Both the position numbers and the translations under genes were made by a program. Of a DNA stretch of 64,000 nucleotides, positions 14,477-63,468 are shown in pieces. Location: assembly GCF_002909235.1 (NCBI RefSeq), contig NZ_PHQQ01000007.1:62001-126000 (forward strand), in the 5' to 3' direction. Source of the stretch: Arenibacter catalasegens. GTDB lineage: Bacteria; Bacteroidota; Bacteroidia; Flavobacteriales; Flavobacteriaceae. Position 1 is the stretch's first letter, and the number at the start of each line of letters is the position of its first letter. The notes under the pieces are model-generated. The model searched no databases. It was not told the origin of the DNA and saw only the letters and a program-made list of their open reading frames with translations.

Positions 14477-14504
14477 ATGCTTCATAATTACATATTAAAT
14501 AAAA

Positions 14505-15424: not shown

Positions 15425-15510
15425 AATTACGCCTTTTCGTATATTTTACGCTGTAAAAATTCAGAATGTTCTTAGTGGCTGTGCTTTTTATTATGAAGCG
15501 ATATAATTTG

Positions 15511-15699
15511 TTAATTTTTAAGGAAAAACTTAATAAGAAATAATATTATTATGAATAATGTGAAGAAAAGTCCTACCCATTTAACTCCTTTGTAATTTTT
15601 TTTATGGAGTTTCATGTCTTTTTGATAGGCAATTATGGTAATTACTACAAATGCGACAAAAAAAAGACCTGCAAAAATTAATTGTCCGGTACTGAACAT
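15511..15699 (-). CDS. Small two-span membrane protein
   Basis: A 62-residue protein from the ATG at 15699 (MFSTGQLIFAGLFFVAFVVI); the frame extends six codons further upstream to 15717. There are two hydrophobic segments separated by a basic loop YQKDMKLHKKNYKGVKW. The pattern is familiar from unnamed short flavobacterial proteins. It is divergent from the MazG-like gene, with about 40 bases between starts. Confidence 0.65.
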   Translation of the reverse strand: MFSTGQLIFAGLFFVAFVVITIIAYQKDMKLHKKNYKGVKWVGLFFTLFIIILFLIKFFLKN

Positions 15700-15740
15700 A
15701 TTTCTATTTTTACGCAAATCTAACTTAAATAATTACAATT

Positions 15741-16130
15741 ATGAAAAGTAAACTGAGTGCGGTAGAATTGTTCCATAATTCTTTTGGGTTGGGTGTTTCC
15801 AAAGAGATTAAGGCAGATTTGGGAAAGGATAAGAATTTACTTCGCTTTAATTTAATGGATGAGGAGAACAATGAATATTTAGAGGCTGCTACCAATAATG
15901 ATGTGGTAGAAGTGGCTGATGCCCTTGGAGATATGCTTTATATATTGTGTGGGACCATACTGGAGCACGGAATGCAATACAAAATAGAAGAGGTTTTTGA
16001 GGAAATTCAGAGAAGTAATATGAGTAAATTGGGGAAAGATGGCAAACCAATTTACAGGGAAGATGGGAAAGTCCTAAAGGGGCCAAATTATTTTAAACCC
16101 AATATAGTTGATATTTTGGATAAAAAATAG
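15741..16130 (+). CDS. MazG-like / phosphoribosyl-ATP-pyrophosphohydrolase-fold protein
   Basis: A 129-residue all-alpha NTP pyrophosphohydrolase-like protein. The metal-binding signature is present as DEENNEYLEA near residues 41-50 and EVADALGDMLYILCG near 57-71 (ExxE...ExxD type). It probably removes non-canonical or damaged nucleotides; the exact substrate is unknown. The C-terminal KLGKDGKPIYREDGKVLKGP is typical of this phage- and bacteria-wide subfamily. It ends before a strong bidirectional terminator shared with ilvE. Confidence 0.85.
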   Translation: MKSKLSAVELFHNSFGLGVSKEIKADLGKDKNLLRFNLMDEENNEYLEAATNNDVVEVADALGDMLYILCGTILEHGMQYKIEEVFEEIQRSNMSKLGKDGKPIYREDGKVLKGPNYFKPNIVDILDKK

Positions 16131-16169
16131 CCTTAGAAAATAAAGAATTCATCTGTGAGTTTAAAAAAA

Positions 16170-16202
16170 AAGGCCCCTCATCCTTTAAAGAAGAGGGGCC
16201 TT
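16170..16202. terminator. Bidirectional terminator
   Basis: AAGGCCCCTC and GAGGGGCCTT form a 10-bp stem between the convergent MazG-like and ilvE genes, preceded by an A-run and followed by TTGTC. Confidence 0.85.
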
Positions 16203-16228
16203 GTCATAATGAAAATGGTATATAATTA

Positions 16229-17299
16229 TTATACCTCCACTTGATATCTCCAACCAAATTTATCTTCGGCCTTATTGTATTGTATATCTGTAATGCGTTT
16301 CTTTAACAAGGAGGCATAACTATCTTTTAATTCTGGCAGATCATAATCCTTGTTCTGGAATCCAAAAGTAGCAATAGGTGAAATTACAGCCGCAGTACCT
16401 GCTCCGAACATTTCTTTCAGAGAACCGTTCTTAGAGGCTTCAACAACCTCTTTTACAGTAATTTTTCTAACCTCCACATTTATATTTTCGTCTTTGGCAA
16501 TGTCTATGATGCTCTTTCTGGTAATACCGTCCAATATCCTATCACTAGTAGGGCTGGTAATTAAAGTGTCATTTATCCTTATGAAAATATTCATGGCTCC
16601 GGCCTCCTCAATATATTCGTGGTTGTTATCATCAGTCCAAATTACCTGATTATAGCCTTTCTCAACTGCCAATTGGGTAGGGTAAAATTGTCCAGCGTAA
16701 TTACCGCCGGCCTTGGCAAAGCCTACACCGCCATTTGCAGATCGGGAATATTTTTCTTCTATCAAGACTTTAACTTTCCCGGCAAAATAAGAGTCAGATG
16801 GAGAACAAGCAATTATAAACTTATACTCGCTAGAAGGTGAGGCGTGGAATCCATTGCCACTGGCAAACACAAAAGGTCTAATGTACAAGGAACTTCCTTC
16901 CTTAGTCGGAATCCATTTATGGTCCAACTTTAAAAGTGCCTTTAAGCCCTCCATAAAGTAATCTTCAGGGAATTCTGGCATAGCCAGTCTCTTGGACGAA
17001 ATGTTAATTCGTTTTTGGTTTTCCAATGGACGAAAAAGCCAAACATTTTTGTCTTCATCCTTGTAGGCTTTCATTCCTTCAAAAACAGATTGCCCATAAT
17101 GGAAAATTTTAGCGGATGGGTCCAGTGTAATCGGTTGATATGGAACTATTGTAGGGAGTTCCCAAGCCCCGTTCTTATAATTACAGATCATCATATGATC
17201 TGTAAAATATTTCCCAAACGATAAATTATCAAAATCTACTTTATCAATTTTTGAACCTTTAACTTTCTCAACTATTATTGAATTTAAAACAGTTTGCAT
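16229..17299 (-). CDS. ilvE: Branched-chain amino acid aminotransferase
   Basis: A PLP fold-type IV enzyme that transfers the amino group between Leu, Ile or Val and 2-oxoglutarate. The 356-residue length fits the group II BCAT family. The PLP lysine is in GVGFAKAGGNYAGQFYP, and EYIEEAGAMNIFI is the conserved block after it. The phosphate-binding GTAAVISP lies near residue 300. It is monocistronic and divergent from the DUF4920 remnant. Confidence 0.95.
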   Translation of the reverse strand: MQTVLNSIIVEKVKGSKIDKVDFDNLSFGKYFTDHMMICNYKNGAWELPTIVPYQPITLDPSAKIFHYGQSVFEGMKAYKDEDKNVWLFRPLENQKRINISSKRLAMPEFPEDYFMEGLKALLKLDHKWIPTKEGSSLYIRPFVFASGNGFHASPSSEYKFIIACSPSDSYFAGKVKVLIEEKYSRSANGGVGFAKAGGNYAGQFYPTQLAVEKGYNQVIWTDDNNHEYIEEAGAMNIFIRINDTLITSPTSDRILDGITRKSIIDIAKDENINVEVRKITVKEVVEASKNGSLKEMFGAGTAAVISPIATFGFQNKDYDLPELKDSYASLLKKRITDIQYNKAEDKFGWRYQVEV

Positions 17300-17404
17300 A
17301 GAGATTTAATTTAAAGCAATAAAATTAAGCAAATATCATTAGTAGTACTTCTTTTTTCGTCTAAAAATACCCAGTTTTGTAAAGTGATATAAATTCTGGC
17401 TATT

Positions 17405-49295: not shown

Positions 49296-50939
49296 TTAGG
49301 ATTTAAAAATCACGTTTTGGTCAGCTTCAAACCATGTTTTGTACAAGGGCTGGAATACCCTTTCCAAACTATTTCTCTTTATTTTTAATGTTGGAGTGGA
49401 AAATCCATTGGCAACGTTCCATTCCTCTTCCATAACTACAACTTTGGATATTTTCTCATGTTTTTGCAGACTTGGATTAATGTCTAAAATGGTTTGATGT
49501 AAACTTTTACTTAGATCATCTTTGGATTTGGACTTTCCTAAAGATGAGACGGTAACTAGCGCAATAGGCTGAGGTATACCTGTGCCAACGACGCAGATCT
49601 GTTCAATATCGGTATTCTTTGAAATTTGAAGTTCTATAGGAGCTGGGGATATGTATTTTCCTTTATCGGTTTTAAATTGATCTTTCACTCTTCCTGTGAT
49701 TGTTAAATAACCTTCATGATCGTATTCGCCGATATCCCCGGTTTTAAAATATCCATACACATCAAAAACTTCCGCTGTTATTTCCGGTGCTTTGTAATAA
49801 CCCTTAAAAAGACAATTGTTTAAAATTAAAATTTCACCTTCCTCAGAGAATTTAATTTTCACCCCTTCCAGTGCTTTGCCTACAGTACCTATTTTACTTT
49901 GACCGGATAAATTGGTATGTGAAATACAACAATCCTCCGTCATACCATAGGCTTGTTGAATAGTGATGCCAATAGTATTATACCATTTAACCAAACTACT
50001 AGCAATGGGTGCAGCCGCCGAGGCAATGAATGATGCGTTGGACAATCCCAATTTGGTCTGGATTTTTTTCTTTATTGATTTGTTTACGAATGGGATGGAT
50101 AATAGTAAGGATAATTTCCTTTGTGGAAGACTTTCCAAAATTTTTTCTTGAAATTTGGTCCAAATTCTAGGTACGCCAAAGAAAATATCCGGTTGTAATT
50201 TTTCTAAATTCTCGGCGAATGTTTCCAAAGAATAAGGAAAGGTTATCTGGCCGCCATAAAAAAGTATTCCATTGCAAAAAGCACGTTCCGCAACATGTGC
50301 CAAAGGCAAATAAGAAAAAAATTTGGGATTCTTTGGGAGGTTTATGACCTGGGTAAATGTACTTGAACTATTGGTGAAATTCCCTGAAGTATGCATTACT
50401 CCTTTTGGTTGTCCCGTAGTTCCAGAGGTATATATAATTGTCCGTAGATCATCGCTTTTCGGTATACACAAATCCATCAACTCCAATTCCTGGTTCAAAA
50501 TGTCTTCCCAATATAATCCGGTATTAGCTCCAAATGCTTTTACACTAATTATGGGGATATTGGGAATGCCTGTTTTTTGGGATGCAAAATCGTCCAGTTT
50601 CCCAATAATAATGGCTTTGGATTCACTATGTGTTAATATTTGATTTATCCCTTCGGAGGTCAATGTTGGGTAGATGGGAATGGAAATAAATCCTGCCATG
50701 GATATGGCCAAATCCGCCATAATCCAGTGGGGGCAATTTTTGGAAAGCAAGGCAATATGACTTTTGTTAGGTAGTCCTAGTTTCAATAAATACGAAGCCA
50801 ATTTTCTCATTTCAATCCCAGCATCGGAATATGAAATGCTCTTTTGATGGCTCTCAAAATTCTGAATCAAGAACGGCTTACTTGGTGTTTCCTTTTCCCA
50901 ATAAAGAAAAGCCTCTATTGAAGAACTGAAATTATTCAT
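49296..50939 (-). CDS. AMP-forming acyl-CoA ligase
   Basis: An ANL-family ligase of 547 residues activating a fatty or aryl acid to its CoA thioester. The ATP loop is IIYTSGTTGQPKGVMHTSG near residue 168; QQAYGMTEDCC is motif A5; TGDIGEYDHEGYLTITGRVK and the catalytic-lysine region follow. It resembles long-chain (FadD15-type) ligases, but acid specificity cannot be read. It is the last gene of a tight minus-strand operon (gaps 17, 15 and 12 bases). Confidence 0.92.
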   Translation of the reverse strand: MNNFSSSIEAFLYWEKETPSKPFLIQNFESHQKSISYSDAGIEMRKLASYLLKLGLPNKSHIALLSKNCPHWIMADLAISMAGFISIPIYPTLTSEGINQILTHSESKAIIIGKLDDFASQKTGIPNIPIISVKAFGANTGLYWEDILNQELELMDLCIPKSDDLRTIIYTSGTTGQPKGVMHTSGNFTNSSSTFTQVINLPKNPKFFSYLPLAHVAERAFCNGILFYGGQITFPYSLETFAENLEKLQPDIFFGVPRIWTKFQEKILESLPQRKLSLLLSIPFVNKSIKKKIQTKLGLSNASFIASAAAPIASSLVKWYNTIGITIQQAYGMTEDCCISHTNLSGQSKIGTVGKALEGVKIKFSEEGEILILNNCLFKGYYKAPEITAEVFDVYGYFKTGDIGEYDHEGYLTITGRVKDQFKTDKGKYISPAPIELQISKNTDIEQICVVGTGIPQPIALVTVSSLGKSKSKDDLSKSLHQTILDINPSLQKHEKISKVVVMEEEWNVANGFSTPTLKIKRNSLERVFQPLYKTWFEADQNVIFKS

Positions 50940-50956: not shown

Positions 50957-52006
50957 TTAAAAATTATTGTCGTCAACGTCTTTAATGAATTTGATCAATC
51001 CAGTGAAATAGGTCTTTTGGTCATCGTATTGCGATAAATGGCTGCCATTTGGGCATAATAAAAATCTGCCCTTTGGTAGTTCTTGGGACATCCATTCCAT
51101 GTATTTCGGATCCATGGTATCATGTGTGGCACCGATAACCAAGGTAGGAACTGTAATGGTTTTTAATCTCTCGGAGACATCCCAGCCCTTTAAAGAGGCA
51201 TTGCCGGTAACCCCAAATTCACTATAACCTTGCATAAAAACATAAATATTGGGGTTGAGGTGGGCCATTGCGCGATTAATGGATTCTGGCCATTTATTCA
51301 TAGGCAATCTTAAAAAGTGTTCGGTATAGTAATGTTGCATTACGAGTTCCGAATATTTGGGATTCATAAAATCATCATTGGCCTCCATTGCCTTTATTTC
51401 CTTATAGACCTCAGGAGGTAATTGTGGCCCCAGCACTTCAGCAGCATATTTCTCATATTCTGGTATGCTGGCCATCATATTGGAAATAATAAGTCCTTTT
51501 AAATTATCTTGATATTTCAAGGCGTACTCCATCGCCAAAATACCGCCCCAAGATTGCCCAAGAAGGTAAAAGTTGTCTTTATTAAGGTTTAGTGCTTTTC
51601 GAACTTGCTCCACTTCCTCAACAAAATGATCTGTGGTCCAAAGAGTGGAATCATTTGGTTTGTCACTGTAATAGGAGTCCAATTGATCGTAATAAATATA
51701 TTCAATTTCTTCTTTTGGTAAATAACCATCAAAACATTCAAAAAATTCGTGTGTACCACCTGGACCCCCATGAAGTAATAACACCTTCATTTTGGGATTG
51801 TTGCCTACCCGTTTAGTCCATACCTTAAAAATTCCTTTAGGGGTATTGATGGCTATCATATTGATTCCGCCTGTAAATTGATCTTCGCTATTGGAGTAAT
51901 CCATATAGGTGGATGTGGGCTCCGTTTCCATTTTTGATTCTTGTTTTTCCGCACAGGAAACTAAAAAAACAAGAAAAATGTTCGTGATTAAAAATACTGT
52001 TCTCAT
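50957..52006 (-). CDS. Proline-iminopeptidase-like S33 hydrolase, lipoprotein
   Basis: An exported alpha/beta hydrolase of 349 residues. MRTVFLITNIFLVFLVSCAEK is a lipoprotein signal with Cys18. The oxyanion motif LLLHGGPGGTHEF and nucleophile GQSWGG are diagnostic of the prolyl aminopeptidase (S33) family; GATHDTMDP gives the acid and NGSHLSQYD the base His. Relatives cleave N-terminal proline or act as amide hydrolases or epoxide-type enzymes. Operon position with the O-methyltransferase and ligase hints at a small-molecule role. Confidence 0.9.
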   Translation of the reverse strand: MRTVFLITNIFLVFLVSCAEKQESKMETEPTSTYMDYSNSEDQFTGGINMIAINTPKGIFKVWTKRVGNNPKMKVLLLHGGPGGTHEFFECFDGYLPKEEIEYIYYDQLDSYYSDKPNDSTLWTTDHFVEEVEQVRKALNLNKDNFYLLGQSWGGILAMEYALKYQDNLKGLIISNMMASIPEYEKYAAEVLGPQLPPEVYKEIKAMEANDDFMNPKYSELVMQHYYTEHFLRLPMNKWPESINRAMAHLNPNIYVFMQGYSEFGVTGNASLKGWDVSERLKTITVPTLVIGATHDTMDPKYMEWMSQELPKGRFLLCPNGSHLSQYDDQKTYFTGLIKFIKDVDDNNF

Positions 52007-52021: not shown

Positions 52022-53059
52022 TTATTTTATAGCTATCGCCGCACTTGTTGGACCTTTCAACGGCATTAATGAAGTTGATTTAAATCCTGCCTCCAGGGCC
52101 ATTTTATTAAAATCGGAAGCAGAGAAGTCATAACCTTCAGCCGTCTCAATAAGCATGTTCAGGGACATCAAAAGCCCAAAGGCATTTTTACTTCTTTCAT
52201 TATCTATAATATTTTCGATTACAACAAAGGCACCTCCTTTAGGTAGGGCATCATATGCTTTTTTTATAAGGGCCTTTTTATCCTTGGTACCCCAGTCATG
52301 TAAAATGTTACCCATGGTAATGATATCCGATTTTGGAAAATCATCAGTAAAAAAATCTCCTGATGTGATTTTCACCTTATCCTTTAAACCCATATTCTGG
52401 ACGTTTTCCTTTGCAATGGGCTCTACCTGGGGCAGATCCATGGATGTACATTGCATATGTTGATTGTTCATGGCTACGTGAGCCGCTAAAAATCCTCCCG
52501 CCCCACCAATATCGCAAAGGGTTTTGTAATTCGAAAAATTAAATGCCTTGGCAAATTCTATAAAATTTCCCATTTGTACCCCGGCCATTGCTCCAACAAA
52601 TTCCCGAAGTTTTTTTGGATCTGCATAAACCGCTTCAAAAATGGGTTTTCCACCATTTTTGGTTTCATTTTGCGGCAAGCCCGTTTTTAGTCCATCCTCC
52701 AAATTGTTCCAAAAGGGGTACAAACGGTTGTTGCACATTTCCAAAATTCCACCTATGTAGGTAGGTTTGTTCTTGTCCAGAAAGAAATCGGCATCCTCTG
52801 CATTACCGTAAAGAGCACTTTCTTTTAATCCCTTTCTTTTCAAAAAGCCCATCGCTACCAAGGCATCCAAAAAATCATATAGGCTTCGAGAGTGCAAACT
52901 TAGCCTGGATTGAATGTCTTTACCAGATAATTCCCGTTTCGCCAAAATGGTAAAAAGGTCCATATTTACTGCTGTAAGCAAGGTTTTGGTGCCAAAAAAT
53001 CCGGTACCGACCTGCATAATTTTTGAAGGGTCCAATGTTATCTTTTCTGCTGTTTCCAT
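52022..53059 (-). CDS. O-methyltransferase (plant-type, acetylserotonin MT-like)
   Basis: A SAM-dependent O-methyltransferase of 345 residues. An N-terminal dimerisation winged helix (about 15-95, including GKDIQSRLSLHSRSLYDFLD) precedes the SAM fold with LCDIGGAGGFLAAHVA, SMDLPQVEPIA and the catalytic GNILHDWGTKDK, whose His is the general base in this family. Substrates are usually hydroxylated aromatics or polyketides. It lies 12 bases after the thioesterase gene in the operon. Confidence 0.92.
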   Translation of the reverse strand: METAEKITLDPSKIMQVGTGFFGTKTLLTAVNMDLFTILAKRELSGKDIQSRLSLHSRSLYDFLDALVAMGFLKRKGLKESALYGNAEDADFFLDKNKPTYIGGILEMCNNRLYPFWNNLEDGLKTGLPQNETKNGGKPIFEAVYADPKKLREFVGAMAGVQMGNFIEFAKAFNFSNYKTLCDIGGAGGFLAAHVAMNNQHMQCTSMDLPQVEPIAKENVQNMGLKDKVKITSGDFFTDDFPKSDIITMGNILHDWGTKDKKALIKKAYDALPKGGAFVVIENIIDNERSKNAFGLLMSLNMLIETAEGYDFSASDFNKMALEAGFKSTSLMPLKGPTSAAIAIK

Positions 53060-53071: not shown

Positions 53072-53617
53072 TTAGATTAATATGTCAGTTGTATTTTTTA
53101 AAAGTTGGTAATCACTACTAAATATGTCATGTATTTCTGCTGAAATTTTCAATTCATCAACTGTGACACCACAATTTTTGAATATCATTTTTAAATCCTG
53201 TGCCTTCTTGTCTTTCCAAAAAGCGGCTTTTGTATAGCCAATGGCACACACTTGGTTATTTTGTTCAAAAACCTGACTGTGATAGACCCATTTGTCATCC
53301 CATCCTTCCAGGATAAGGGTGATTTTGAAAGTTGACCACATTTTTAATGGTTTTTTGTAGATAATTTTTTGAGACCCTAATACCGCATACATCCCTTTTT
53401 TTACAGTATTCTCAAATAGTTTTGAGCGAAACATTTTCTCAAATCGAATGAAGTCCATGTAATAAGCGTACTTGGCATTGGACATATATCTGAAGGTGTC
53501 GCAATCTAAAATACTAACCCTTTGTTTTCTAGTTTGATTAGATGTCAGATCAACTTCCTTCCAAAATAATTTGGAACCTATAAAAATGTATAGTAGCTGT
53601 AACCAATAATAGACCAT
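53072..53617 (-). CDS. Hotdog-fold acyl-CoA thioesterase-like protein (THEM6 type)
   Basis: A 181-residue 4HBT-type protein with a short hydrophobic N-terminus (MVYYWLQLLYIFIGSKLFW). The pattern RVSILDCDTFRYMSNAKYAYYMD and GSQKIIYKKPLKMWSTFKI matches the THEM6/4HBT_2 family, although Asp-containing catalytic spacing (RYMSNAKYAYYMD in place of HMNNARYLRELD) is variant. It probably hydrolyses an acyl-CoA. First gene of the four-gene operon, 90 bases downstream of the SnoaL-like gene. Confidence 0.82.
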   Translation of the reverse strand: MVYYWLQLLYIFIGSKLFWKEVDLTSNQTRKQRVSILDCDTFRYMSNAKYAYYMDFIRFEKMFRSKLFENTVKKGMYAVLGSQKIIYKKPLKMWSTFKITLILEGWDDKWVYHSQVFEQNNQVCAIGYTKAAFWKDKKAQDLKMIFKNCGVTVDELKISAEIHDIFSSDYQLLKNTTDILI

Positions 53618-53706: not shown

Positions 53707-54633
53707 CTATTTATAGACTGCATCATTAAGTTGTTTAGTATCCACATATTGCTGAAAAGCAATCACCTTTCCGTCATGAAGCGTCCAAAGATGGGCCGCC
53801 TGTGCATCTATAAGAGCTCCATTTGTCTTTAATTTGGCATTGTATCTCAGGGTAGCCAGCACTTGGTTATTACTCATTTCGTGAAGCTCAATATCCGTAA
53901 GGTTAAAGTATTCATGTTCCGCTCCTAGGCGCGCAAAGACCCCATTGACTACGGCATCCGGTCCTTTATAGGGATTTCCGTCCGCAAGTTCATTGCCTTC
54001 GGCCTCGTTCCAAACAATATTGGCATCCATTGCAGCTAGTACGGTAGGAATGTCGCCCACAGCGAAGGCTTTGTAAAGACCGTCGATAATATTCTCATTA
54101 TCAGGGTTGGAAAGCAAACCCAACTGTTGCAGGAACACCATATTGTCCATAAAATCTTGTTCTTGGGCTATCTTGCCATTTTTCATTTTCACCAGAGTTA
54201 CTCCATCCACGTTTACGCTTTTTCCCGTTGGCGGAATTCCAAAAAAATCATCGGTATGGGTTCCCTTAAAATTCCAATATTTTACAATTTTATCGCCCTG
54301 CCCGAAGACATCCATGATAGTGAAGTTGACCTCAGAAAATCCGGTAAGGTAATTTTGATAGTAGGCCTTAAACCCTTCAATGCCTATAATATTTTCGGGA
54401 GTGGAAATGAGGGTTATGTTGGTGTCAAAATTCTTGTTGTTGATTTCGTCAATTTTTCCTTGATTAATAATTTCGTCCCATACCTGGGAATACATTTTAA
54501 TGTCCTTTTTGATGTTGCTTTTTTGAGCAATTCCCGGAGCGGAAATAAATAGAATTACTAACACCAATAGAATAGTGTTAGTAATTGTGTTATTACCAAT
54601 TATGTTGGGTTTTTGTTTATTTTTTGAAATCAT
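53707..54633 (-). CDS. Exported protein with two SnoaL-like domains
   Basis: A 308-residue protein with a hydrophobic signal (TILLVLVILFISAPGIAQ) and two NTF2/SnoaL-like domains, about 45-175 and 180-305. The first domain has GTHTDDFFGIPPTGKSVNVD and QEQDFMDNMVFLQQLGLL, the ester-cyclase pattern shared with the two neighbours at 55664 and 59048. The second domain (YKGPDAVVNGVFARLGAEHE) is the general NTF2 type. Exported SnoaL proteins of unknown substrate are common in Bacteroidota. Enzyme activity is unproven. Confidence 0.82.
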   Translation of the reverse strand: MISKNKQKPNIIGNNTITNTILLVLVILFISAPGIAQKSNIKKDIKMYSQVWDEIINQGKIDEINNKNFDTNITLISTPENIIGIEGFKAYYQNYLTGFSEVNFTIMDVFGQGDKIVKYWNFKGTHTDDFFGIPPTGKSVNVDGVTLVKMKNGKIAQEQDFMDNMVFLQQLGLLSNPDNENIIDGLYKAFAVGDIPTVLAAMDANIVWNEAEGNELADGNPYKGPDAVVNGVFARLGAEHEYFNLTDIELHEMSNNQVLATLRYNAKLKTNGALIDAQAAHLWTLHDGKVIAFQQYVDTKQLNDAVYK

Positions 54634-54704
54634 AATGGTTTAGTTTAAGGGTTGTAGGATTATCTGGTTTACCATGTATATTAAACAGACTAGGCCACTA
54701 TAGT

Positions 54705-55601
54705 TTATATTTTTTCTTTAGTTAATACTCGAATCTTCTTTTTCCCATTTTCGTTTAATTCGGAAATGGTCAATCTAGTGGTGTTTAAGGATAAAATTTC
54801 AAAATGATAGCTCAACTTACGTTTTGTGTCAATACCGGGAAGGGTAAAGGTATTGTCTCCCAAATAATTGAAATTGACACCATACAGCTCGTTTTTCATC
54901 CAAAGAGCATTGTCCTTATTAAAGAAGACTTTTTTTAGAAGCTTTTTATCGTCGGTATAAACGCCAACCAATTTGTCAATAGCAGCCGATTCGGGACTTA
55001 GGTTTTGTGACATATTTACGTCAAAGACAACTTTTTTGCTGCCATTGTTCAAGCGTTCCACACTCAAAATCCTTTTTTTTGCAGTTGGGGAAGAAGCGGA
55101 TTCGTCTTTGTCTAAATAGTCATCACCAATAAAATAGAGTTGTGTTACCAAGGGTTGATAGCCGGTTGCAGATATCATCATATGAAAATGCGCGGGCCGA
55201 ATAGTTCCATCACCCACGTCATAAGGTACCGGTAGAATGGTATTGAAGTTATAATTGCCATTTGAATCGGAATAGGTAGTGCCACGATAACGATAATCCT
55301 GGGAGGTGTTATCGTAAACACCCCGTGCATCGCAATGCCATAGTTCTATTTTGGCCTTAGGGTAGGGGGTCGTACAGTCGTTATGGTTTATTTTCCCAAT
55401 GAGTTCAATAGAATCTCCCATTTCACCTTTAATGGATAGACTATTGCGCAGTGGACTATTGGGTCTATAAAACGGACCCAATATATCGGTTGTCGTTTCG
55501 CAATCTCCTACATAACTATGCCCATCAAACCGAACAAAACCAGAGGTACTTATTGCAATGGCAAACAGAGCCGTATTATTGACAAAAGTTCTTCTTTCCA
55601 T
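54705..55601 (-). CDS. Exported intradiol-ring-cleavage dioxygenase-like protein
   Basis: A 298-residue protein with a signal or Tat-like start (MERRTFVNNTALFAIAIS). The dioxygenase core holds GPFYRPNSPLR, WHCDARGVYDN (Tyr ligand), YRYRGTTYSDSNGNY (second Tyr) and RPAHFHMMI with the two His iron ligands. All four ligands of the Fe(III) site are thus present. The protein is longer at the C-terminus (about 90 extra residues of beta structure). Intradiol enzymes cleave catechols; an exported one would act on aromatics in the periplasm. Confidence 0.88.
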   Translation of the reverse strand: MERRTFVNNTALFAIAISTSGFVRFDGHSYVGDCETTTDILGPFYRPNSPLRNSLSIKGEMGDSIELIGKINHNDCTTPYPKAKIELWHCDARGVYDNTSQDYRYRGTTYSDSNGNYNFNTILPVPYDVGDGTIRPAHFHMMISATGYQPLVTQLYFIGDDYLDKDESASSPTAKKRILSVERLNNGSKKVVFDVNMSQNLSPESAAIDKLVGVYTDDKKLLKKVFFNKDNALWMKNELYGVNFNYLGDNTFTLPGIDTKRKLSYHFEILSLNTTRLTISELNENGKKKIRVLTKEKI

Positions 55602-55663
55602 TTTATAGTTGATTTAATAATTTTAACTATTATGTAAATTGATTCAGAACATTTAGATTATCA

Positions 55664-56584
55664 TTACTTAAGAGCTGGCATGGTATATCCTAACTGTTCG
55701 TAAACTACTAGGTTGTCATAAAAGGCATCTTCACGAACGGCTTTTCCAGAGGTGTCGAAAAGCCAGACACTAATTCCTTGGGTTTTAATTTTTTTGTTGG
55801 TAGGTGCATTTCCCATGAATTCTCCTTTATTGGTGCCAGTACATGTCCAGTTTATATAGGCCTTGTTGCCGGATATTACCGTTTTGTCCAGGCTTACCTT
55901 AAAGTCAGGAAAGGCAATGTGATAGACTCCCATAAAGTCGCCATAATCCGATTGTTTTTTGGCGATGGTGACCCCGTTGGCCGTTCTTGTGACATTTTTA
56001 GCCAAATTACCATACATTAATTCCTTATCATTTGTATTCCATGCTTTGATGACATTGTCCATAGTAGCCTGAATAGCTTTTTCATCGGCAGACATGCTGT
56101 TTTTCATTTCCATTTCCTGAACGGCCAGAACCACTTCCGTGGGATCCCACATCCCAACTTCTCGAACAATTTTACCATCTGCGAAACGAAATGTTAGATG
56201 TATAGGGATATTCACCACTTGACCATTACCTGCAAGTGTGCCTTGCCAGTCTAACCAACAATTTACCCATGTCTCCCCATCATCCGTGAGCACCATTTCA
56301 TATTCTTGGTCTTTATCAAGGAAACTCCTTTGAGAGTAGGTCAATTCCGTTTGTTTATGAAAAGCCAAGGCCTCCTCGGGCGTTAAGGGAGATTCTTTTG
56401 AATTATAATAAGTCTTCGAGGTATCGGCATAGATACTGGAGTCATATGTTTTATTATTGTAATTGTCGATTAATTTCTTTACTGTATTGATTTCCGGTGA
56501 ACTTTGTGTGTAACGTTCCGGTTTTTTTTCTTGACAGGCCGTTATAAAAGCTATTGCGAGCCCAATAATTAGTAATTTTTTCAT
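55664..56584 (-). CDS. Lipoprotein with two SnoaL-like domains
   Basis: A 306-residue predicted lipoprotein (MKKLLIIGLAIAFITACQEK, Cys17). An N-terminal NTF2-like half (about 30-160, WLDWQGTLAGNGQVVNIPIH) and a C-terminal SnoaL half with DFKVSLDKTVISGNKAYINW, GTNKGEFMGNAPTNKK and REDAFYDNLVVYEQLGYTMP. The last segment aligns with the ends of the proteins at 53707 and 59048. It lies 62 bases upstream of the dioxygenase gene in transcription order. Confidence 0.83.
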   Translation of the reverse strand: MKKLLIIGLAIAFITACQEKKPERYTQSSPEINTVKKLIDNYNNKTYDSSIYADTSKTYYNSKESPLTPEEALAFHKQTELTYSQRSFLDKDQEYEMVLTDDGETWVNCWLDWQGTLAGNGQVVNIPIHLTFRFADGKIVREVGMWDPTEVVLAVQEMEMKNSMSADEKAIQATMDNVIKAWNTNDKELMYGNLAKNVTRTANGVTIAKKQSDYGDFMGVYHIAFPDFKVSLDKTVISGNKAYINWTCTGTNKGEFMGNAPTNKKIKTQGISVWLFDTSGKAVREDAFYDNLVVYEQLGYTMPALK

Positions 56585-56647
56585 GATGCTTTCATTTTTT
56601 GTTTGGACCTGACGGGATTAAAGCTCCCGTCAGGTTTTGTGCCAAAA

Positions 56648-57082
56648 CTATTTTTTGGTTAATTCCGGATTTTCTTGATATATCTCGTCGGAATGGGTTA
56701 CCACGTATTTACTCCACGACTTAATAAATGCCAAGCGGTCTTCTTCCTTGGGCCATGCAGTTTTCATCAATTCATTCTGCTTATTGGATGCGGCTTCTAT
56801 ATCGTTCCAATTGGCATACTCACTAATTACAACCAAATCGCGTAAGTCGGCACCCGATATATGGTGGAACACTTTTTCACTGATAACCTTATCGTTTTTG
56901 AAGGTTATTTTTTCAGAAAATTCTTTTAAATGGGCATTGAGCTCTGCCCGAGATCCATTTTCAGGTATACTTAGTTTCCAGGTGGTTACAGTATAATAAT
57001 GCCCCTCTTGTGCTGCTCCAGTAGTGGGAATAAAAAAGGCCATTACTATTAGTGTCCCAATAATTGATTTTAGTGATTTCAT
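56648..57082 (-). CDS. Exported ABM-like (dimeric alpha/beta barrel) protein
   Basis: A 144-residue protein from the ATG at 57082 (MKSLKSIIGTLIVMAFFIPT then GAAQ, a signal peptide); the frame opens at 57130. The mature part, YYTVTTWKLSIPENGSRAEL, DLVVISEYANWNDIEAASNK and a final helix, fits a single ferredoxin-like domain of the EthD/ABM type. No active-site residue is evident. Function unknown. Confidence 0.72.
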   Translation of the reverse strand: MKSLKSIIGTLIVMAFFIPTTGAAQEGHYYTVTTWKLSIPENGSRAELNAHLKEFSEKITFKNDKVISEKVFHHISGADLRDLVVISEYANWNDIEAASNKQNELMKTAWPKEEDRLAFIKSWSKYVVTHSDEIYQENPELTKK

Positions 57083-57235
57083 AGATTTTAGAGTTTCTGT
57101 TATTAATTGATTGTTAGTCAAATTGTACATTTATTTTCCCTTAGAGATATAATTTGAAGTGAACTTCACATCGAAATTGTATTGATACTAATTCAAACAT
57201 TTATTTAAAACTTATAAAGCTGTTTGAAGGTGATG

Positions 57236-58018
57236 CTACTGCCCTGATGGCGCTACTACTTTTACAATCCGGTAGACAAAGCTGATGCGCTGATCAATCT
57301 CTAGTTCGCCAATCTCTGTAAGACCATCTGTTGGAAATACCGCATTCGGACCCCAAGTGGGATCTAGTGCTTCCTTTAAGCTGGAATAAAGGTCAAAAGA
57401 AATTGTGTTGGCCTGCATATTGGGACCGGAGGGGGTCAGTATTCTAGCATTTCCCCAGGCCTTCTGTTTCGTTTTGCCACTATTCATTGCTGATCCAATA
57501 AAAGGGCCCCAATGCTTTTCTTCCAGCTCGATCAAATTCCCGGGATTAGAGGCATTGTGATAAATAATTTTAACAAATTTATAATCCTTTTCTGGTATTG
57601 CATTACTGGCCTTGACCCATACTTCGGGTTTTACAAATATGGTATGGATTACCTTACTCATAGAAAAAGTTTCCATTTTATCCATAGGAACATCAGGCCA
57701 AACCCCAGATGGATCCCAGATATTTGCTGTCGCGTCAATGTCTTTAAAGGTATTGATGAACAAAATATTAGGAGAGTTGGGCTCATCAAAACCGCCGACC
57801 TTCTGAAACAGCCCCCAGAATATCAGATTCCCTTTGGATAAAGCATTTTCGGCAACTTTACTCCAATATTTGGTTTCCCTAGAAATGAATTCTTCCATTT
57901 GATCGGGTGCTACCTGTCTGTACTGATATACACTTATGCCCTTGTTGACGTCATCTTGGGCATTCAGCTTAATACTGAATAAAAAAACAAAAACCAGCAT
58001 AAGTTTTGCTAATTTCTC
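57236..58018 (-). CDS. Exported duplicated alpha/beta-barrel protein
   Basis: The ATG at 58018 gives about 260 residues beginning MEKLAKLMLVFVFLFSIKLNA-Q, a clean signal peptide; the upstream start at 58042 adds eight residues. Two similar halves (VYQYRQVAPDQMEEFISRET and KFVKIIYHNASNPGNLIELE) each look like one ferredoxin-like domain. It resembles the proteins at 58206 and 62680 in layout: signal, YW-containing helix, second half starting near residue 140. Function unknown. Confidence 0.75.
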   Translation of the reverse strand, partial: EKLAKLMLVFVFLFSIKLNAQDDVNKGISVYQYRQVAPDQMEEFISRETKYWSKVAENALSKGNLIFWGLFQKVGGFDEPNSPNILFINTFKDIDATANIWDPSGVWPDVPMDKMETFSMSKVIHTIFVKPEVWVKASNAIPEKDYKFVKIIYHNASNPGNLIELEEKHWGPFIGSAMNSGKTKQKAWGNARILTPSGPNMQANTISFDLYSSLKEALDPTWGPNAVFPTDGLTEIGELEIDQRISFVYRIVKVVAPSGQ

Positions 58019-58082
58019 CATGCAATGAATAGTTGTTTTCATAATGTTTGATTTTGCTGTTATTACTTTTTTGTCAAAAAAG

Positions 58083-58196
58083 CAGGCATGCTGGTTTTAG
58101 CGTTGGTTGGTATATTTTCTTTACTTAGTTGCTAATTCAAATTGAAAATTTACTTACTACGTATCACCTTATAGTTTTTTTACTAGAGCATGCCTG
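58083..58196. repeat. Separated 10-bp inverted repeat
   Basis: CAGGCATGCT at 58083-58092 and AGCATGCCTG at 58187-58196 are perfect complements flanking most of the 163-base gap between two exported-barrel genes. Could fold an mRNA hairpin with a large loop; chance is possible. Confidence 0.3.
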
Positions 58197-58205
58197 TTTA
58201 TGTAT

Positions 58206-58973
58206 TTAATTCGATGGCTTATAAGCAAGGTCTGGGTGCATTTCACCTGTCTCCGTTTCGTATTTCAGTACATAACCAAAGAGTTCTTCGAAAAGTTTTT
58301 TTCCTTCCTCCCCTAATAATGCTTCATTTGCTTTAGATTTCTTGGCATGATCCTCTTCGTCTACTGCGGAAATTACTGCGAGATAGTAATCTCCCATAGT
58401 GCCAAATCCATTGTGGTAAATACGATAGTACTCCTTGGATCCTTTTTTTGCATATAAGGCTTTTAACTCTTTAAGTTTTCCCTTAAGATTTTGGAGATTG
58501 CTGGGAGTTACATTTAAAAAATGCCATTTTCTGTAGTTTTGACCCTCAGTGGTAGTACTGATGCCTTCTGGCATATAGGTAAGTTCTTTGTTTAGATAAA
58601 TTACATAATCGCCATGTTTGTCATAACATTCATTAAACCGCCTAAACAAATCTTTAAAGGCATCCTCTCCCATTTTATCAGATAAGGGCTCAAAGACGTT
58701 CTTATCCAATTCCGCCATATTTTCTATAGGTGAAATGTTGAAATATCTACCTGTAGAGGTGGATGCCACTTGCCAGCTAGCCCCTTCGAGCTTATGTTTT
58801 TTACATGCTTCCATAAAATCCTTGGATACCTCGTTGTATTTTTGGATCATGGAAGGTTTTACCTGGTCCTCGTGGACATAATAGGCTTGGTTTTTTTCAC
58901 CTTGCGCCAATGCTAGGCTAGGAGTCAATAGCCCTAATAATATAATGACAAATGATTTTTTAAAGTTTCTCAT
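58206..58973 (-). CDS. Exported duplicated alpha/beta-barrel protein
   Basis: A 255-residue secreted protein: signal MRNFKKSFVIILLGLLTPSL then ALAQ. The first half (AYYVHEDQVKPSMIQKYNEV to PIENMAELD) and second half (WHFLNVTPSNLQNLKGKLKE to DYYLAVISAVDEED) are two ferredoxin-like repeats. It shares this plan with 57236 and 62680 but little exact sequence. No catalytic motif is seen. Function unknown; a binding or scaffold role is as likely as catalysis. Confidence 0.75.
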   Translation of the reverse strand: MRNFKKSFVIILLGLLTPSLALAQGEKNQAYYVHEDQVKPSMIQKYNEVSKDFMEACKKHKLEGASWQVASTSTGRYFNISPIENMAELDKNVFEPLSDKMGEDAFKDLFRRFNECYDKHGDYVIYLNKELTYMPEGISTTTEGQNYRKWHFLNVTPSNLQNLKGKLKELKALYAKKGSKEYYRIYHNGFGTMGDYYLAVISAVDEEDHAKKSKANEALLGEEGKKLFEELFGYVLKYETETGEMHPDLAYKPSN

Positions 58974-59047
58974 AATTTTAAAGTTTAGTTAATAATGTTG
59001 ATTTTAATATTAGTTTTATTTTTAGAAGGGAACATTTATTAAGTACC

Positions 59048-59587
59048 CTATTTAAGATTTGGAGCTACTAAGGTGTATCCCAATTGTTGCAGAAACTCCA
59101 ATTCATTGTAAAAAATATCTTCTTGGTATATTTTACCCTCTTCATTAAAATAGAGATGTGAAAACCCATTTATTTTAACTTTTTTACCCGTAGCAATTAC
59201 ATCTGCAAATTGTCCTGTATGGGTTCCGGTGAAGACCCAGTTTACATATCCTTGATTTTCACAGACATTACTATTGCTCGTAAATATATTATGGTCGGGG
59301 AATCCAGTACTATATAGGCTTAGTCTTGCTTTTAATTCCGATCTATTGGTAACCACGGGAATTCCGTTCATATTTCTTATATAATTGTCTGTTACCAAGC
59401 CATTAATCTCTTCCTCATCCTTAATGTTTAAATAGGTGCCAATAGCCAACGCAAGACGGGCATTTTTATGAATTACCTGGTTTCCATTGTTTTCTGATTT
59501 TATGTCATTACCCACAGGTTTTTGGTTGTTTTTGCAAGAAATACAACCTATAACCATAAACATAAAAAGTATTATTGGTGATTTCAT
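59048..59587 (-). CDS. SnoaL-like lipoprotein
   Basis: A 179-residue predicted lipoprotein (MKSPIILFMFMVIGCISCKN with Cys15 or Cys18). One SnoaL-like ester-cyclase domain: YVNWVFTGTHTGQFADVIAT, KKVKINGFSHLYFNEEGKIY and the end QEDIFYNELEFLQQLGYTLV. The GTHTGxF and EDxFYNxL..LQQLGYT segments match the proteins at 53707 and 55664. Divergent from the histidine kinase gene, 184 bases away. Confidence 0.83.
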   Translation of the reverse strand: MKSPIILFMFMVIGCISCKNNQKPVGNDIKSENNGNQVIHKNARLALAIGTYLNIKDEEEINGLVTDNYIRNMNGIPVVTNRSELKARLSLYSTGFPDHNIFTSNSNVCENQGYVNWVFTGTHTGQFADVIATGKKVKINGFSHLYFNEEGKIYQEDIFYNELEFLQQLGYTLVAPNLK

Positions 59588-59770
59588 GCCGATATAATAA
59601 CGCTCTACTTTAAACTAATTAATCGGATTTTATGCAGATAATCAATCCTTTAAGGACGGAGGCCATGATTTATTGTCCGAGCAGGTGGTTTTAATTACCT
59701 AATGAAATATGCAAATAATATTCGTATATTTAAGAACCCCTGCTTTTTAAAGTATTTGATAGTTTAAATA

Positions 59771-61723
59771 ATGGGCAAACACCACTACATAGCAGTTTCC
59801 ATCACTATTTTATTTAGTTCATTATTATATGGTCAACTCATAGATTTTGACAGGGATATTCCTTATCAAAAAGTGTTTGTGGATACCGACAATTTTGGAG
59901 CCTCCTATCTGGACCATTTGGAGATTTTTTATGAAAGTGCCCCTACGGATACCTTGCAATTTGAAATCCTGAATGATTTGGCATATTATTGGCATACGCG
60001 TAACCTAACAAAGGCTTTGAATTTTACTAGGGTAGGCTTAAAACGAACTATTGATCATAATAATAAGCTCTGGAATGGCCGATTTCAGATTACGCAAGGC
60101 GCCATTCTTCTGCGTATGGAAAAACTGGACAGTGCCCAAATAGTCTTGGAAGAAGCCAAAAGTAAAGTGTTGGCCAAGGATCTGGCTTTTTTAAACACCC
60201 AACTAGGTTATGTTTATGAACGTCGAGGGCGACTAGACCGGGCTGCCGATTATGCCATGGAAGCACTACGGTTAGGGGAGGAGCAAAATGACAAAAGGGC
60301 AATTGCCGTTGCTTATAGTGATTTGAGCAATATTTTTTGGAAACAGGCCAAATATGATAAGGGATTAAAATATGGTATCAAAGCCATTATCCTCTTTGAA
60401 GAACGTGGAATAATGGATTTGGATTATGACTTTACACTCTATGTTGTAGCCAACAACTACCTTAAATTAAATAGGCATGAAGAAGCACTAAAATATTTTG
60501 AACATTCTTTGGCTATTGGTGAACGATACGGTTTTTATAATAATTTAAGTGATGTTTATATTTCTCTTGTGGATTTGTACGCATATTTAAACGAGTACAA
60601 GAAAGCCGAAAATGCCGGACTTAATGCCATTAAATATGCCGAGTTGTTGGATAATGATTTTATGCTGATGCGATCATGGCTATCCATCGGGAAATTGCAG
60701 AATTTGCAGGGAAAATATAAGAATGGTATAGAAAGTCTTCAAATGTCACTTAATGTGGCTACCTCTGATTTTGGGGATGAATTTTATTTGAGTCAGGCAT
60801 ATGAAGCCTTGGGAAAAGCTTTCGCGGGGGACCATAATTACATGGAAGCTTACAAGGCATTTTCAGAATATGACGGCCTTAAGAAGGAAATTTTCACAGC
60901 AGAATCCGATCACCGTATTGCCTTATTGCAAACGGAATTTGACGTTGCACAAAAAGAGGACACTATAATTCTTCAGCGGGGAACGATAAAAAAACAACAG
61001 AGTAACCAGACTTTGACTTCCATAATCACTGGATTATTATTGTTTCTCTTGGTCTTGGGAGTTCTGTCTATTAGAAATAACCGAAGAAAAAACATACTAC
61101 TACAGCATCAAAATAAAGAGAAGGAATTCCTGATAAAGGAAATACATCACCGGGTTAAAAATAATATGGAAGTGGTCTCCAGTTTGCTTTCACTACAATC
61201 TACGCATATAGACGACAAAAAAATAAAGGAAAACATGCACCAAATCCAAAATCGGATTCAGAGTATGAGTATGATTCATCAAAATTTATATCAGGGAAAG
61301 AATTTGGCGACTATAGAGATGAGGAATTATTTTAAAATTCTGGGTGATTATGTACTCCATTCTTACGGTGCAGAGCAAAGGATTAGCATGTTTTTTGACA
61401 TGAAGAAGATCGAACTAAATGTTGACATTGCAACGCCTATTGGATTAATTGTTAATGAGTTGATTACAAATTCATTGAAATATGCTTTTCCCCACAATCT
61501 TCATGGTAAAATTACCATATCCTTGGAGCAGAAGACCACTCATTTAGAACTAAAGGTTAACGACAATGGCATTGGTTTCACAGAGGGAAATAAGGCTAAT
61601 GGCACCGGTTTTGGGACCCAGTTGATAGCACTTTTGACCAAGCAATTGGACGGTAAAATGGTGTTAAGACAAAAGAAAGGAACTTCAGTATCCTTTGAAT
61701 TTCAACATCACAAAGCAGCCTGA
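59771..61723 (+). CDS. TPR-containing sensor histidine kinase (HisKA_2)
   Basis: A 650-residue sensor. After a signal-like N-terminus come TPR-type helical repeats (about 60-390, for example YERRGRLDRAADYAMEALRL), a transmembrane segment at about 415-435, a short coiled linker, the phosphoacceptor helix EIHHRVKNNMEVVSSLLSLQ (His459/His460) and a HATPase domain with GLIVNELITNSLKYAF, NDNGIGF and NGTGFGTQL. The sensor TPRs are outside the cytoplasm, so a protein or peptide signal is likely. The response regulator follows after 2 bases. Confidence 0.93.
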   Translation: MGKHHYIAVSITILFSSLLYGQLIDFDRDIPYQKVFVDTDNFGASYLDHLEIFYESAPTDTLQFEILNDLAYYWHTRNLTKALNFTRVGLKRTIDHNNKLWNGRFQITQGAILLRMEKLDSAQIVLEEAKSKVLAKDLAFLNTQLGYVYERRGRLDRAADYAMEALRLGEEQNDKRAIAVAYSDLSNIFWKQAKYDKGLKYGIKAIILFEERGIMDLDYDFTLYVVANNYLKLNRHEEALKYFEHSLAIGERYGFYNNLSDVYISLVDLYAYLNEYKKAENAGLNAIKYAELLDNDFMLMRSWLSIGKLQNLQGKYKNGIESLQMSLNVATSDFGDEFYLSQAYEALGKAFAGDHNYMEAYKAFSEYDGLKKEIFTAESDHRIALLQTEFDVAQKEDTIILQRGTIKKQQSNQTLTSIITGLLLFLLVLGVLSIRNNRRKNILLQHQNKEKEFLIKEIHHRVKNNMEVVSSLLSLQSTHIDDKKIKENMHQIQNRIQSMSMIHQNLYQGKNLATIEMRNYFKILGDYVLHSYGAEQRISMFFDMKKIELNVDIATPIGLIVNELITNSLKYAFPHNLHGKITISLEQKTTHLELKVNDNGIGFTEGNKANGTGFGTQLIALLTKQLDGKMVLRQKKGTSVSFEFQHHKAA

Positions 61724-61725
61724 TT

Positions 61726-62460
61726 ATGAATCAAACTACCCGTATTTTAATTGTTGAGGATGATATGATCATCGCTGCAAATATTTCTGTACAACTCACC
61801 AATTTGGGCTATGAAGTAATCGGCATTGAAACTAGAGGGGAAGAGGCTATTTTACATGCTTCGGCGAACACTCCGGATATTATTTTATTGGATATTAACC
61901 TGAAAGGAAGGGTAAATGGTATTGAAGCGGCAATTCAGATTCAGAAATTCAAAAGAATTCCCATAATATACCTTACGGCCAATAGTGATGAAGCTACCTT
62001 TACCAAGGCTAAAGCTACACATCCATACGCGTTTATTTCCAAGCCGTTTAATAATCTGGATTTGCAACGTACCATTGCCTTAGTAGTGGATCAAATTAAG
62101 GAAAATAATCAGGATACCGAGGATATTCCTGAAAATTTCGAGGTCATGGTAGACCGAATCTTTGTAAGGCATAATGGGCGAATGGTAAAACTACTTCTCG
62201 ACGAAATTCTTTATATCGAGGCCGATAGAAATTACAGTAATATCATCACATCAAATGGCAACTATCTGATTAGTACTACACTTAAGGTTGTGGGAAATGA
62301 AATTAAGAACCATATGTTTATTCGGGTGCATAGATCTTTTATAGTCAATATTTTTAAATTGGATGTAGTAGCGGATAACCATTTGGAAATTAATAGAAAA
62401 GTAATCCCTTTAAGTAAATCGTTCAAAGAAAATCTTCTTAAACACCTACATACTATATAA
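61726..62460 (+). CDS. LytTR family response regulator
   Basis: Partner of the kinase just upstream, 244 residues. The receiver domain (1-120) has phospho-Asp56 in ILLDINLKG and the switch Lys in FISKPF. The LytTR DNA-binding domain (about 140-244) has LLLDEILYIEADRNYSNII and FIRVHRSFIVNIFKLD. LytTR proteins bind paired direct repeats near promoters. Proximity suggests control of the flanking exported-protein genes, which is inference. Confidence 0.94.
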   Translation: MNQTTRILIVEDDMIIAANISVQLTNLGYEVIGIETRGEEAILHASANTPDIILLDINLKGRVNGIEAAIQIQKFKRIPIIYLTANSDEATFTKAKATHPYAFISKPFNNLDLQRTIALVVDQIKENNQDTEDIPENFEVMVDRIFVRHNGRMVKLLLDEILYIEADRNYSNIITSNGNYLISTTLKVVGNEIKNHMFIRVHRSFIVNIFKLDVVADNHLEINRKVIPLSKSFKENLLKHLHTI

Positions 62461-62679
62461 AATAAAAATGTCTAGGCTTTGGTAATTTTTTGCGTATCTA
62501 CGGACAATAATGGCTTTGGTTCATCCTAATCTCCTGAATTTTACGGGATTTATTATTTTATTTGGGATAAGCCAACCTATGGTTCAAAGGAGCCATACCT
62601 CGGTATTTGGTTTGGGCTTTGATTATGAAACGGATTGAATAATTCGAAAGAGTAGTATTAACCAATAGCACCTAATTTT

Positions 62680-63468
62680 ATGAAAAATTTATTAATTCTA
62701 TTCGCTTTATTGATGGTGAGCAATTTGACTATTGCTCAGGAAAAACTATATCTCGTATTTGAATTCATGAAAGTGGATAACGAACAGGAAATGGAGTATA
62801 ACGCCACAGAAGAGTTTTGGGAAAAAATTCAGGTGCAACGGATAAAAGCCGGTGATATTATGGGCTGGGACCTTTGGGCACTTAGTCCGGGGGGAGAACA
62901 GCAAGGATTTCAATACGTTACCGTCACCGTATTTAACGACCCTGTAAAGATGATGGATGGTAGTAGTTGGTCACAGCTTTTGGATAGGGCCAAAGCGGCT
63001 TATCCTAAAATGGCTGAAGCGGATATTAATAAAAAAATACAACATTCCTCGGCAACAAGGGATCTGGCAGTAAGAATATTTACGGAAGAAATTGCCACGA
63101 CCAAAGGAGATTTTGATATGCCTTTGGGTACCGTGGCCCAGATAGACATGATGAAGGTAGACCTTATGAACTACGGTGCTTATGAAAAGGCAGAGATGGA
63201 AATCTTTCAACCAATTCACCAAAAAGTTGTCGACGCTGGAGAAAAAGCCAATTGGGGATTAATACGATTTATTAATCCTATAGGAAGTGATACATACGCT
63301 TCCCATATGACGGTAAGCATGTTTAAGGATTATAAGCAAGCCTTGAACCAAAATATCAATTGGGAAGAGGGAGCAACCCCGGTATCCACCAAAGCTATGG
63401 AAGTCGGCTTAGGGTTAAGGGACATGAAATATGTTTATATGGCTAATTTGATTAGAAAGGCACGGTAG
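62680..63468 (+). CDS. Exported duplicated alpha/beta-barrel protein
   Basis: A 262-residue secreted protein with signal MKNLLILFALLMVSNLTIAQ. Layout matches 57236: first half KLYLVFEFMKVDNEQEMEYN, with EEFWEKIQVQRIKAGDIMGW, second half VAQIDMMKVDLMNYGAYEKA and HMTVSMFKDYKQAL. Two ferredoxin-like domains are probable. No named family. It follows the response regulator by 220 bases on the same strand and may be its target. Confidence 0.75.
   Translation: MKNLLILFALLMVSNLTIAQEKLYLVFEFMKVDNEQEMEYNATEEFWEKIQVQRIKAGDIMGWDLWALSPGGEQQGFQYVTVTVFNDPVKMMDGSSWSQLLDRAKAAYPKMAEADINKKIQHSSATRDLAVRIFTEEIATTKGDFDMPLGTVAQIDMMKVDLMNYGAYEKAEMEIFQPIHQKVVDAGEKANWGLIRFINPIGSDTYASHMTVSMFKDYKQALNQNINWEEGATPVSTKAMEVGLGLRDMKYVYMANLIRKAR

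Follow-up and report, generated by a model that had tools for sequence, protein, structure and literature searches.

The 64,000-nt stretch of the Arenibacter catalasegens genome analysed here (hereafter the window; contig NZ_PHQQ01000007.1, inside a 5.45-Mb genome) contains a cluster of genes for exported proteins together with a TPR-containing sensor histidine kinase and a REC-LytTR response regulator. We propose that a conserved two-component regulon, represented here by its home copy, supplies inducible extracytoplasmic proteins that act as enzymes on, or as binders of, small molecules of the aromatic or quinone type, a reading to which we assign a probability of about 0.5. The regulatory design within it, in which the regulator pair acts through a conserved site on the promoters of exported-protein genes, is very probably right, judging from sequence conservation. 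A sequence-only reading of the window had listed three exported SnoaL/NTF2-type proteins (Sno1 to Sno3), four exported barrel-type proteins (ABM1 to ABM4) and one intradiol dioxygenase (IDO) with four iron ligands, with a TPR kinase and a LytTR regulator in their midst, and this inventory stands. The regulator has REC (71.5 bits; curated cut-off 30.2) and LytTR (58.9 bits; cut-off 22.6) domains, and the adjacent histidine kinase gene encodes a HisKA_2 domain (89 bits) with an EIHHRVKNN segment.

Comparison of the Sno3-kinase intergenic gap across six genomes, and of the gap upstream of ABM4 in four, revealed a candidate operator that, read toward the exported-protein gene, has the form TTCGGACA-N13-TTCGTCCTA, with half-sites 21 bp apart. 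Within the entire home genome the exact core is present only twice, both times in the cluster (upstream of Sno3 and upstream of ABM4); a reversed control pattern occurs once, and not at all in a tighter search. A weight matrix built from ten sites was run on the window and on 67 other loci (given L numbers; sampled genomes have G numbers). Seven of the nine loci of the same regulator clade that were not used in the matrix (L009, L011, L031, L036, L090, L091, L092, L093, and L098) score at least 18.7. L090 lacks a site, and the one in L091 is weak (14.8) and correctly placed; the genomes of both bear sites scoring 25.9–30.6 elsewhere (L129, L130). Maximum scores in the controls are 15.8 for shuffled DNA, 17.4 for loci without the regulator (L035), and 14.5 for 20 control regions and positions 1–53000 of the window.

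The exact pattern GGAYGRA-N13-TGTCCG was also searched in 345 evenly drawn Bacteroidota genomes. The string on its own lacks specificity, matching in 95 of the 345; among Flavobacteriaceae it is present in 6 of 8 regulator-positive genomes versus 1 of 30 regulator-negative genomes, five of those six having fed the motif. All 19 exact sites were inspected in the eight genomes that have both a clade regulator and at least one match (two in G000, one in G107, two in G126, two in G130, three in G134, two in G194, one in G226, and six in G234). Seventeen lie upstream of an NTF2/SnoaL or barrel/ABM gene, one of the exact sites (L136) about 65 bp upstream of an NTF2 gene; seven of the 17 had been used in motif building. 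Eight of the 17 are off the regulator locus (one each in G126, G130, G134, and G226, and four in G234), and the G226 site adjoins another kinase of the same family. The two remaining sites are upstream of an exported beta-helix protein (L129) and within a coding open reading frame (L157). Among the 17, the L132 site has downstream of it a 148-aa ABM-type open reading frame, whose Pfam ABM match (E 2e-4) falls just short of the cut-off (21.9 against 23.1 bits) and which was recognised as such only after the operator pointed there; a fasciclin lipoprotein was rejected as the target because it sits on the other side of the site.

The operator stands at a preferred distance from a promoter-like element. 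When 29 sites were aligned by the operator (including the weak L091 site and excluding L136 and L157), a TNNNTT box starts at position 60 in 22 of them, in 19 of the 25 left after removal of four near-duplicates, and in 13 of the 18 that were unused in the matrix. Every other offset between positions 32 and 95 has a count of 9 or fewer, and shuffling the 25 sites 2000 times gave at most 8 at any one offset. The flavobacterial −7 element, TANNTTTG, has its first T at −12 (PMC6847099). With the box at position 60, the operator would thus cover about −71 to −43. This is a usual location for an activator. A scan for sigma-70-type promoters was uninformative (54 found, 54.9 expected). These sites give a sequence basis to the earlier suggestion that the gene set is tied to its kinase-regulator pair. 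In the L129 region (8291-11833), a perfect operator with a −7-like box stands upstream of the gene for a large exported beta-helix protein carrying MopE-type metal-binding repeats, perhaps a regulon member of another kind.

The sites also follow the phylogeny of the regulator. In a tree of 23 regulators, for which no support values were seen, the 16 from genomes with operator sites form one clade, and the seven outside it have no site scoring 14 or more in their loci. These distant regulators (L086-L089 and L099-L101; 34–43% identity) were rejected as members of the system, since their loci contain neither barrel nor NTF2 matches and none of their operator-like sites scores above 13.8. The pairing of a REC-LytTR regulator with a kinase partner is shared with known LytTR two-component systems such as E. 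coli YpdA/YpdB, but here the kinase is of the TPR-HisKA_2 rather than the LytS type, the half-sites are TTCGGACA/TTCGTCC rather than GGCATTTCAT, and the regulon consists of exported NTF2 and barrel proteins. Described LytTR sites are two repeats with a spacer of 11–13 nt (PMC4847170), and the candidate operator resembles them in having a 13-nt spacer between 8-nt half-sites and a 21-bp period. PMC10197871 reports LytTR regulator mutations following antibiotic coevolution, and a link to this gene set could not be established.

The earlier expectation that the set would co-occur across genomes is borne out, since it recurs over genera. Profile searches of the 345 genomes found IDO in 8 (E≤1e-40), the regulator in 16 (E≤1e-60) and ABM3 in 12 (E≤1e-10), and the regulator and ABM3 occur together in seven (hypergeometric p = 7e-8, uncorrected for relatedness, two of the seven belonging to one genus). 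The two are no more than 5 kb apart in six of these (G000, G107, G130, G134, G198, and G234) and far apart in G103. The G198 relative of ABM3 (L068; G198:C1:3073196-3073948) contains one in-frame TAA, leaving an open part of 209 aa, and may be decaying or reflect a sequencing error. An arrangement of Sno3, ABM3 and a Sno2-type gene divergent from the kinase is common to L094, L095, L096, and L097, with variants in which a cupin-like gene lies in between (L095, L097), the regulator faces the kinase (L096), or ABM4 follows the regulator (L094).

Family members were also counted by growing families from the window proteins on a database that combined test and control regions, with the window, L003 and the duplicates L079-L082 dropped. 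The 14 regulator loci (273 kb) contain 14 barrel and 21 NTF2 matches. The corresponding numbers are 5 and 14 for the 34 dioxygenase loci that lack the regulator (559 kb), with one of each in 22 control regions (440 kb), and none of either in the eight loci of the distant-regulator class, which includes L102, a locus situated between two G190 regulator relatives and holding neither. The two folds also travel together without the LytTR pair: in a 17-kb stretch lacking it (L106), a dense cluster at 9892-17305 contains ABM3, three Sno1-like genes, and CMD, ABM, GYD, and EthD members, with NIPSNAP and cupin matches below threshold. At L105:5382-8156 a Y_Y_Y/HisKA_3 kinase and a LuxR-type regulator adjoin barrel, ABM3 and NTF2 genes, in place of the LytTR pair.

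Predicted export divides the products of operator-led gene runs along enzyme classes. By a crude scoring rule, and with near-duplicate genomes included, 29 of 30 NTF2 proteins, all 23 barrel proteins, all five RidA-like proteins, both cupin-like proteins and both hydrolases are exported, whereas none of 14 methyltransferases, short-chain dehydrogenases, epimerases, thioesterases, and ligases is. Two of four dioxygenases and the L132 ABM-type product are scored as non-exported, and the runs also hold several membrane proteins and unassigned genes. Characterised members of the exported enzyme classes are not known to depend on NAD(P)H, ATP, S-adenosylmethionine (SAM) or another diffusible cofactor, which would suit them to the periplasm.

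All three Sno proteins exceed the gathering cut-off for PF07366 (SnoaL-like; 98.1, 70.4, and 58.8 bits against 28.4), a match that relates them to the SnoaL polyketide cyclases and the NTF2-like superfamily. They differ from those cyclases in being exported, and two are about 300 aa long with apparent tandem domains. They fall below the cut-off for TIGR02096, and for the SnoaL methyl-ester cyclase model NF033407 Sno1 reaches 32.4 of the 200 bits required while the other two are absent at E≤0.1. The solved relatives found for Sno3 are weak (E 0.004–0.006), comprising an 8r20 chain named 'hydroxylase' and SnoL (2gex, 8r2b). None of the four window barrel-type proteins has a Pfam match at E 0.1, the ABM monooxygenase family PF03992 included, and PF03992 against 15 aligned proteins gave a single match at E 0.12. 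Assignment to the dimeric alpha/beta-barrel (ferredoxin-like) fold comes from ABM4, both ferredoxin-like repeats of which match solved proteins; ABM1 to ABM3, tied to ABM4 by iterative profile search, may share it, and the ABM3 structure model is poor and of low confidence. The nearest known proteins are two-domain ferredoxin-fold proteins at 7–12% identity (CT0912 3gn6, PenE 9kdp, the anthrone-oxidase-like 5f9p, and sulfur oxygenase reductase 2cb2), from which the window barrels differ in being exported and without a Pfam family match. Among the best 1000 Foldseek chains, structure comparison indicated no single enzyme class.

The dioxygenase is accessory to the set and not its core. IDO matches PF00775 (Dioxygenase_C) at 90.5 bits (cut-off 27.3), and Y96, Y127, H138, and H140, which we take to be the iron ligands (two Tyr and two His), are conserved without exception in 15 of 15 relatives; the same holds for R3, R4, and F6 of its twin-arginine-type leader and for three cysteines (C34, C76, and C90; window 55332-55502, minus strand), one within a WHCD segment. 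The solved structures related to it belong to chlorocatechol, catechol, hydroxyquinol and protocatechuate dioxygenases. Dioxygenase_C and the four ligands are shared with intradiol dioxygenases such as chlorocatechol 1,2-dioxygenase (1s9a) and the intradiol-domain protein 8r2v; the leader, a C-terminal extension of about 100 aa and the three invariant cysteines set it apart, and no Pfam domain beyond Dioxygenase_C was found. It scores far below the listed NCBIfam catechol, chlorocatechol and protocatechuate dioxygenase equivalog cut-offs (at best 81.7 bits against 359.25), too low for a substrate to be assigned.

The sequence-only reading had placed this enzyme at the centre of the cluster, a view that we abandon because only six of the 36 dioxygenase loci fetched hold a regulator orthologue (L003, L004, L009, L011, L031, and L036). 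In the 345-genome sample, IDO coincides with the regulator in three genomes and with ABM3 in two, and in only one of the eight genomes with an IDO relative, the home genome, does the regulator adjoin it; in the other two with both (G064, G190) they are on different contigs. In G190 and G203 the IDO relative stands near barrel and NTF2 genes without the regulator, and the other five genomes have neither nearby. IDO does lie inside an operator-led run in four loci (the window, L003, L004, and L011). Two Ferruginibacter loci (L009:15676-16563 and L031:15030-15917) contain a second, diverged exported dioxygenase, with about 40% identity to the window IDO, 4–5 kb from the first.

The coordinates of the cluster are given in the table. 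The minus-strand run from 59587 downward comprises Sno3, ABM3, ABM2, ABM1, Sno2, IDO, and Sno1, followed on the same strand by four further genes separated by gaps short enough for a single unit; the kinase and regulator are divergent from it, with ABM4 219 bp further on. Between ABM1 and Sno2 (window 56585-56647, minus strand) there is a 10-bp hairpin, CCTGACGGGA...TCCCGTCAGG, that lacks a T-run and is possibly a processing or attenuation site. The ABM3-ABM2 gap (window 58043-58205, minus strand; L003:7379-7545) begins, in each of the two species, with ACAGG(C/T)ATGC and ends with (C/T)ATGCCTG followed by a T-run, and is possibly a terminator with a very long loop. L003, from Arenibacter hampyeongensis, is the closest named relative among the loci fetched, with 79–92% protein identity (best copies of matched genes) and gene order largely kept, and Sno1 is unmatched. 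It contains an extra ABM3 copy (L003:5802-6569), and an NTF2 gene and a short-chain dehydrogenase replace Sno1 (L003:11065-12714), indicating that the effector set turns over.

Table. Features of the A. catalasegens cluster, in window coordinates.
Feature	Position	Strand	Description
AMP-binding ligase	49296..50939	-	may be last gene of the unit
Alpha/beta hydrolase lipoprotein, proline-iminopeptidase-type	50957..52006	-	
O-methyltransferase (Methyltransf_2)	52022..53059	-	no signal peptide by crude rule
Thioesterase-like (4HBT_2)	53072..53617	-	no signal peptide by crude rule
Sno1	53707..54633	-	exported SnoaL protein; second half DUF4440-like, under cut-off
IDO (intradiol dioxygenase)	54705..55601	-	RRxF twin-arginine-type leader; Y96, Y127, H138, H140
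Sno2	55664..56584	-	exported lipoprotein, SnoaL domain(s)
ABM1	56648..57130	-	exported barrel-type; one domain judged by length
ABM2	57236..58042	-	exported barrel-type, related to ABM4
ABM3	58206..58973	-	exported two-repeat barrel-type; often adjoins regulator in Flavobacteriaceae
Sno3	59048..59587	-	exported (lipoprotein-type) SnoaL/NTF2-like; heads minus-strand run
−7-like box of operator 1	59615..59622	-	TTAATTAG; positions 60–67 from operator start
Candidate operator 1	59652..59681	-	CTCGGACA-N13-TCCGTCCT toward Sno3; kept in orthologous gap of L003, L094, L095, L096, L097
Sensor kinase	59771..61723	+	leader, TPR region, hydrophobic segment, HisKA_2, HATPase_c
REC-LytTR response regulator	61726..62460	+	presumed activator at both operators
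Candidate operator 2	62499..62528	+	TACGGACA-N13-TTCATCCT toward ABM4; kept upstream of ABM4 in L003, L094, L004
−7-like box of operator 2	62557..62564	+	TTTATTTG; positions 59–66 from operator start, one base off usual offset
ABM4	62680..63468	+	exported two-domain barrel-type; own operator

In the mechanism that we propose, the extracytoplasmic TPR region of the kinase would sense a cue and the kinase would phosphorylate the regulator, which would then bind the paired half-sites TTCGGACA and TTCGTCC(T), at their 21-bp spacing, a short distance ahead of a Bacteroidota promoter of the housekeeping type. The conserved sites and their fixed spacing to the −7-like box suggest that the bound regulator activates that promoter. 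The products would be mainly the two families of small exported proteins, NTF2/SnoaL-like and ferredoxin-like-barrel (ABM-like), with lineage-specific additions: a twin-arginine translocation (Tat)-type intradiol dioxygenase, a RidA-like protein that is exported, a cupin, or a lipoprotein hydrolase. Outside the cytoplasm these may bind small molecules of the aromatic or quinone type or act on them by oxidation, isomerisation or cleavage, with SAM-, coenzyme A (CoA)-, ATP- or NAD-dependent partners carrying out finishing steps in the cytosol. Given an intradiol dioxygenase, a Methyltransf_2 O-methyltransferase and a barrel fold resembling that of an anthrone-oxidase-like protein, small phenols, quinones or aromatic polyketides are the simplest common substrate class, a chemical assignment that we rate at slightly under even odds. 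A periplasmic pathway, as raised earlier, is plausible. A narrower version is more tentative, namely that one LytTR regulon controls an inducible extracytoplasmic pathway made solely of enzyme types free of diffusible cofactors (barrel oxygenases, NTF2/SnoaL isomerase-cyclases, a non-heme-iron ring-cleaving dioxygenase, and a hydrolase), with the SAM, NAD and CoA steps being cytosolic.

Several other functions could be served by the same gene set. The exported proteins might instead be protective, neutralising or sequestering aromatic antibiotics or quinones that are toxic to the cell, either in its periplasm or on its surface, with the kinase sensing the toxin or envelope damage. Exported paralogues under a single sensor, effector sets that vary by lineage, and the weak similarity of Sno3 to the 8r20 'hydroxylase' and SnoL would all fit such a role. 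However, the operator-led gene runs showed no recurring efflux pump or known resistance gene, many of their genes being unannotated and no resistance or defence library having been searched, and we consider this role rather unlikely. Non-catalytic binding, in which the NTF2 and barrel proteins serve outside the cytoplasm as carriers or baits through which a signal molecule is delivered or presented to the TPR kinase, would account for the divergence of the barrels (12–25% identity to ABM4, its two close orthologues excepted) and for the several exported paralogues adjoining the kinase. This is harder to reconcile with the retention of ABM3 residues H34, D36, R148, and Y186 in 13 of 13 sequences and of all metal ligands in the dioxygenase, and it seems to us improbable.

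The AMP-ligase, thioesterase and O-methyltransferase, together with the SnoaL proteins, could alternatively be taken as biosynthetic, producing an exported aromatic or polyketide-like metabolite, and the genes for the first three do come next on that strand, separated by small gaps. However, no polyketide or peptide synthase domain was found among the cluster proteins scanned, the SnoaL and barrel proteins are exported, and among the 36 dioxygenase loci ligase and thioesterase matches occur only in L003 (Arenibacter), making biosynthesis very unlikely. Exported proteins are common enough (107 of 334 control open reading frames are scored as having a signal peptide or as lipoproteins) that a chance neighbourhood has to be considered, but recurrence over genera, the control-region counts and the operator evidence all speak against it; with cross-genus synteny and off-locus sites both found, its probability is close to negligible.

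We found no description of the gene set or operator in the open-access literature, judged mostly by title and abstract and with subscription papers largely outside its scope. The parts are of known kinds, and it is the combination of regulon, operator and exported effector set that appears to be undescribed within the literature searched. The analysis links a number of uncharacterised exported proteins of the Bacteroidota through one candidate regulator and one shared DNA site, and provides promoters that can be tested. Some of these proteins are barrels that match no Pfam family, others SnoaL/NTF2 proteins whose name comes from cytosolic antibiotic enzymes, and what had been exported proteins of unknown function become a regulon whose inducer could be screened with one reporter. 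If the chemical assignment is true, aromatic or quinone compounds would be processed outside the cytoplasm by enzymes that are free of cofactor supply.

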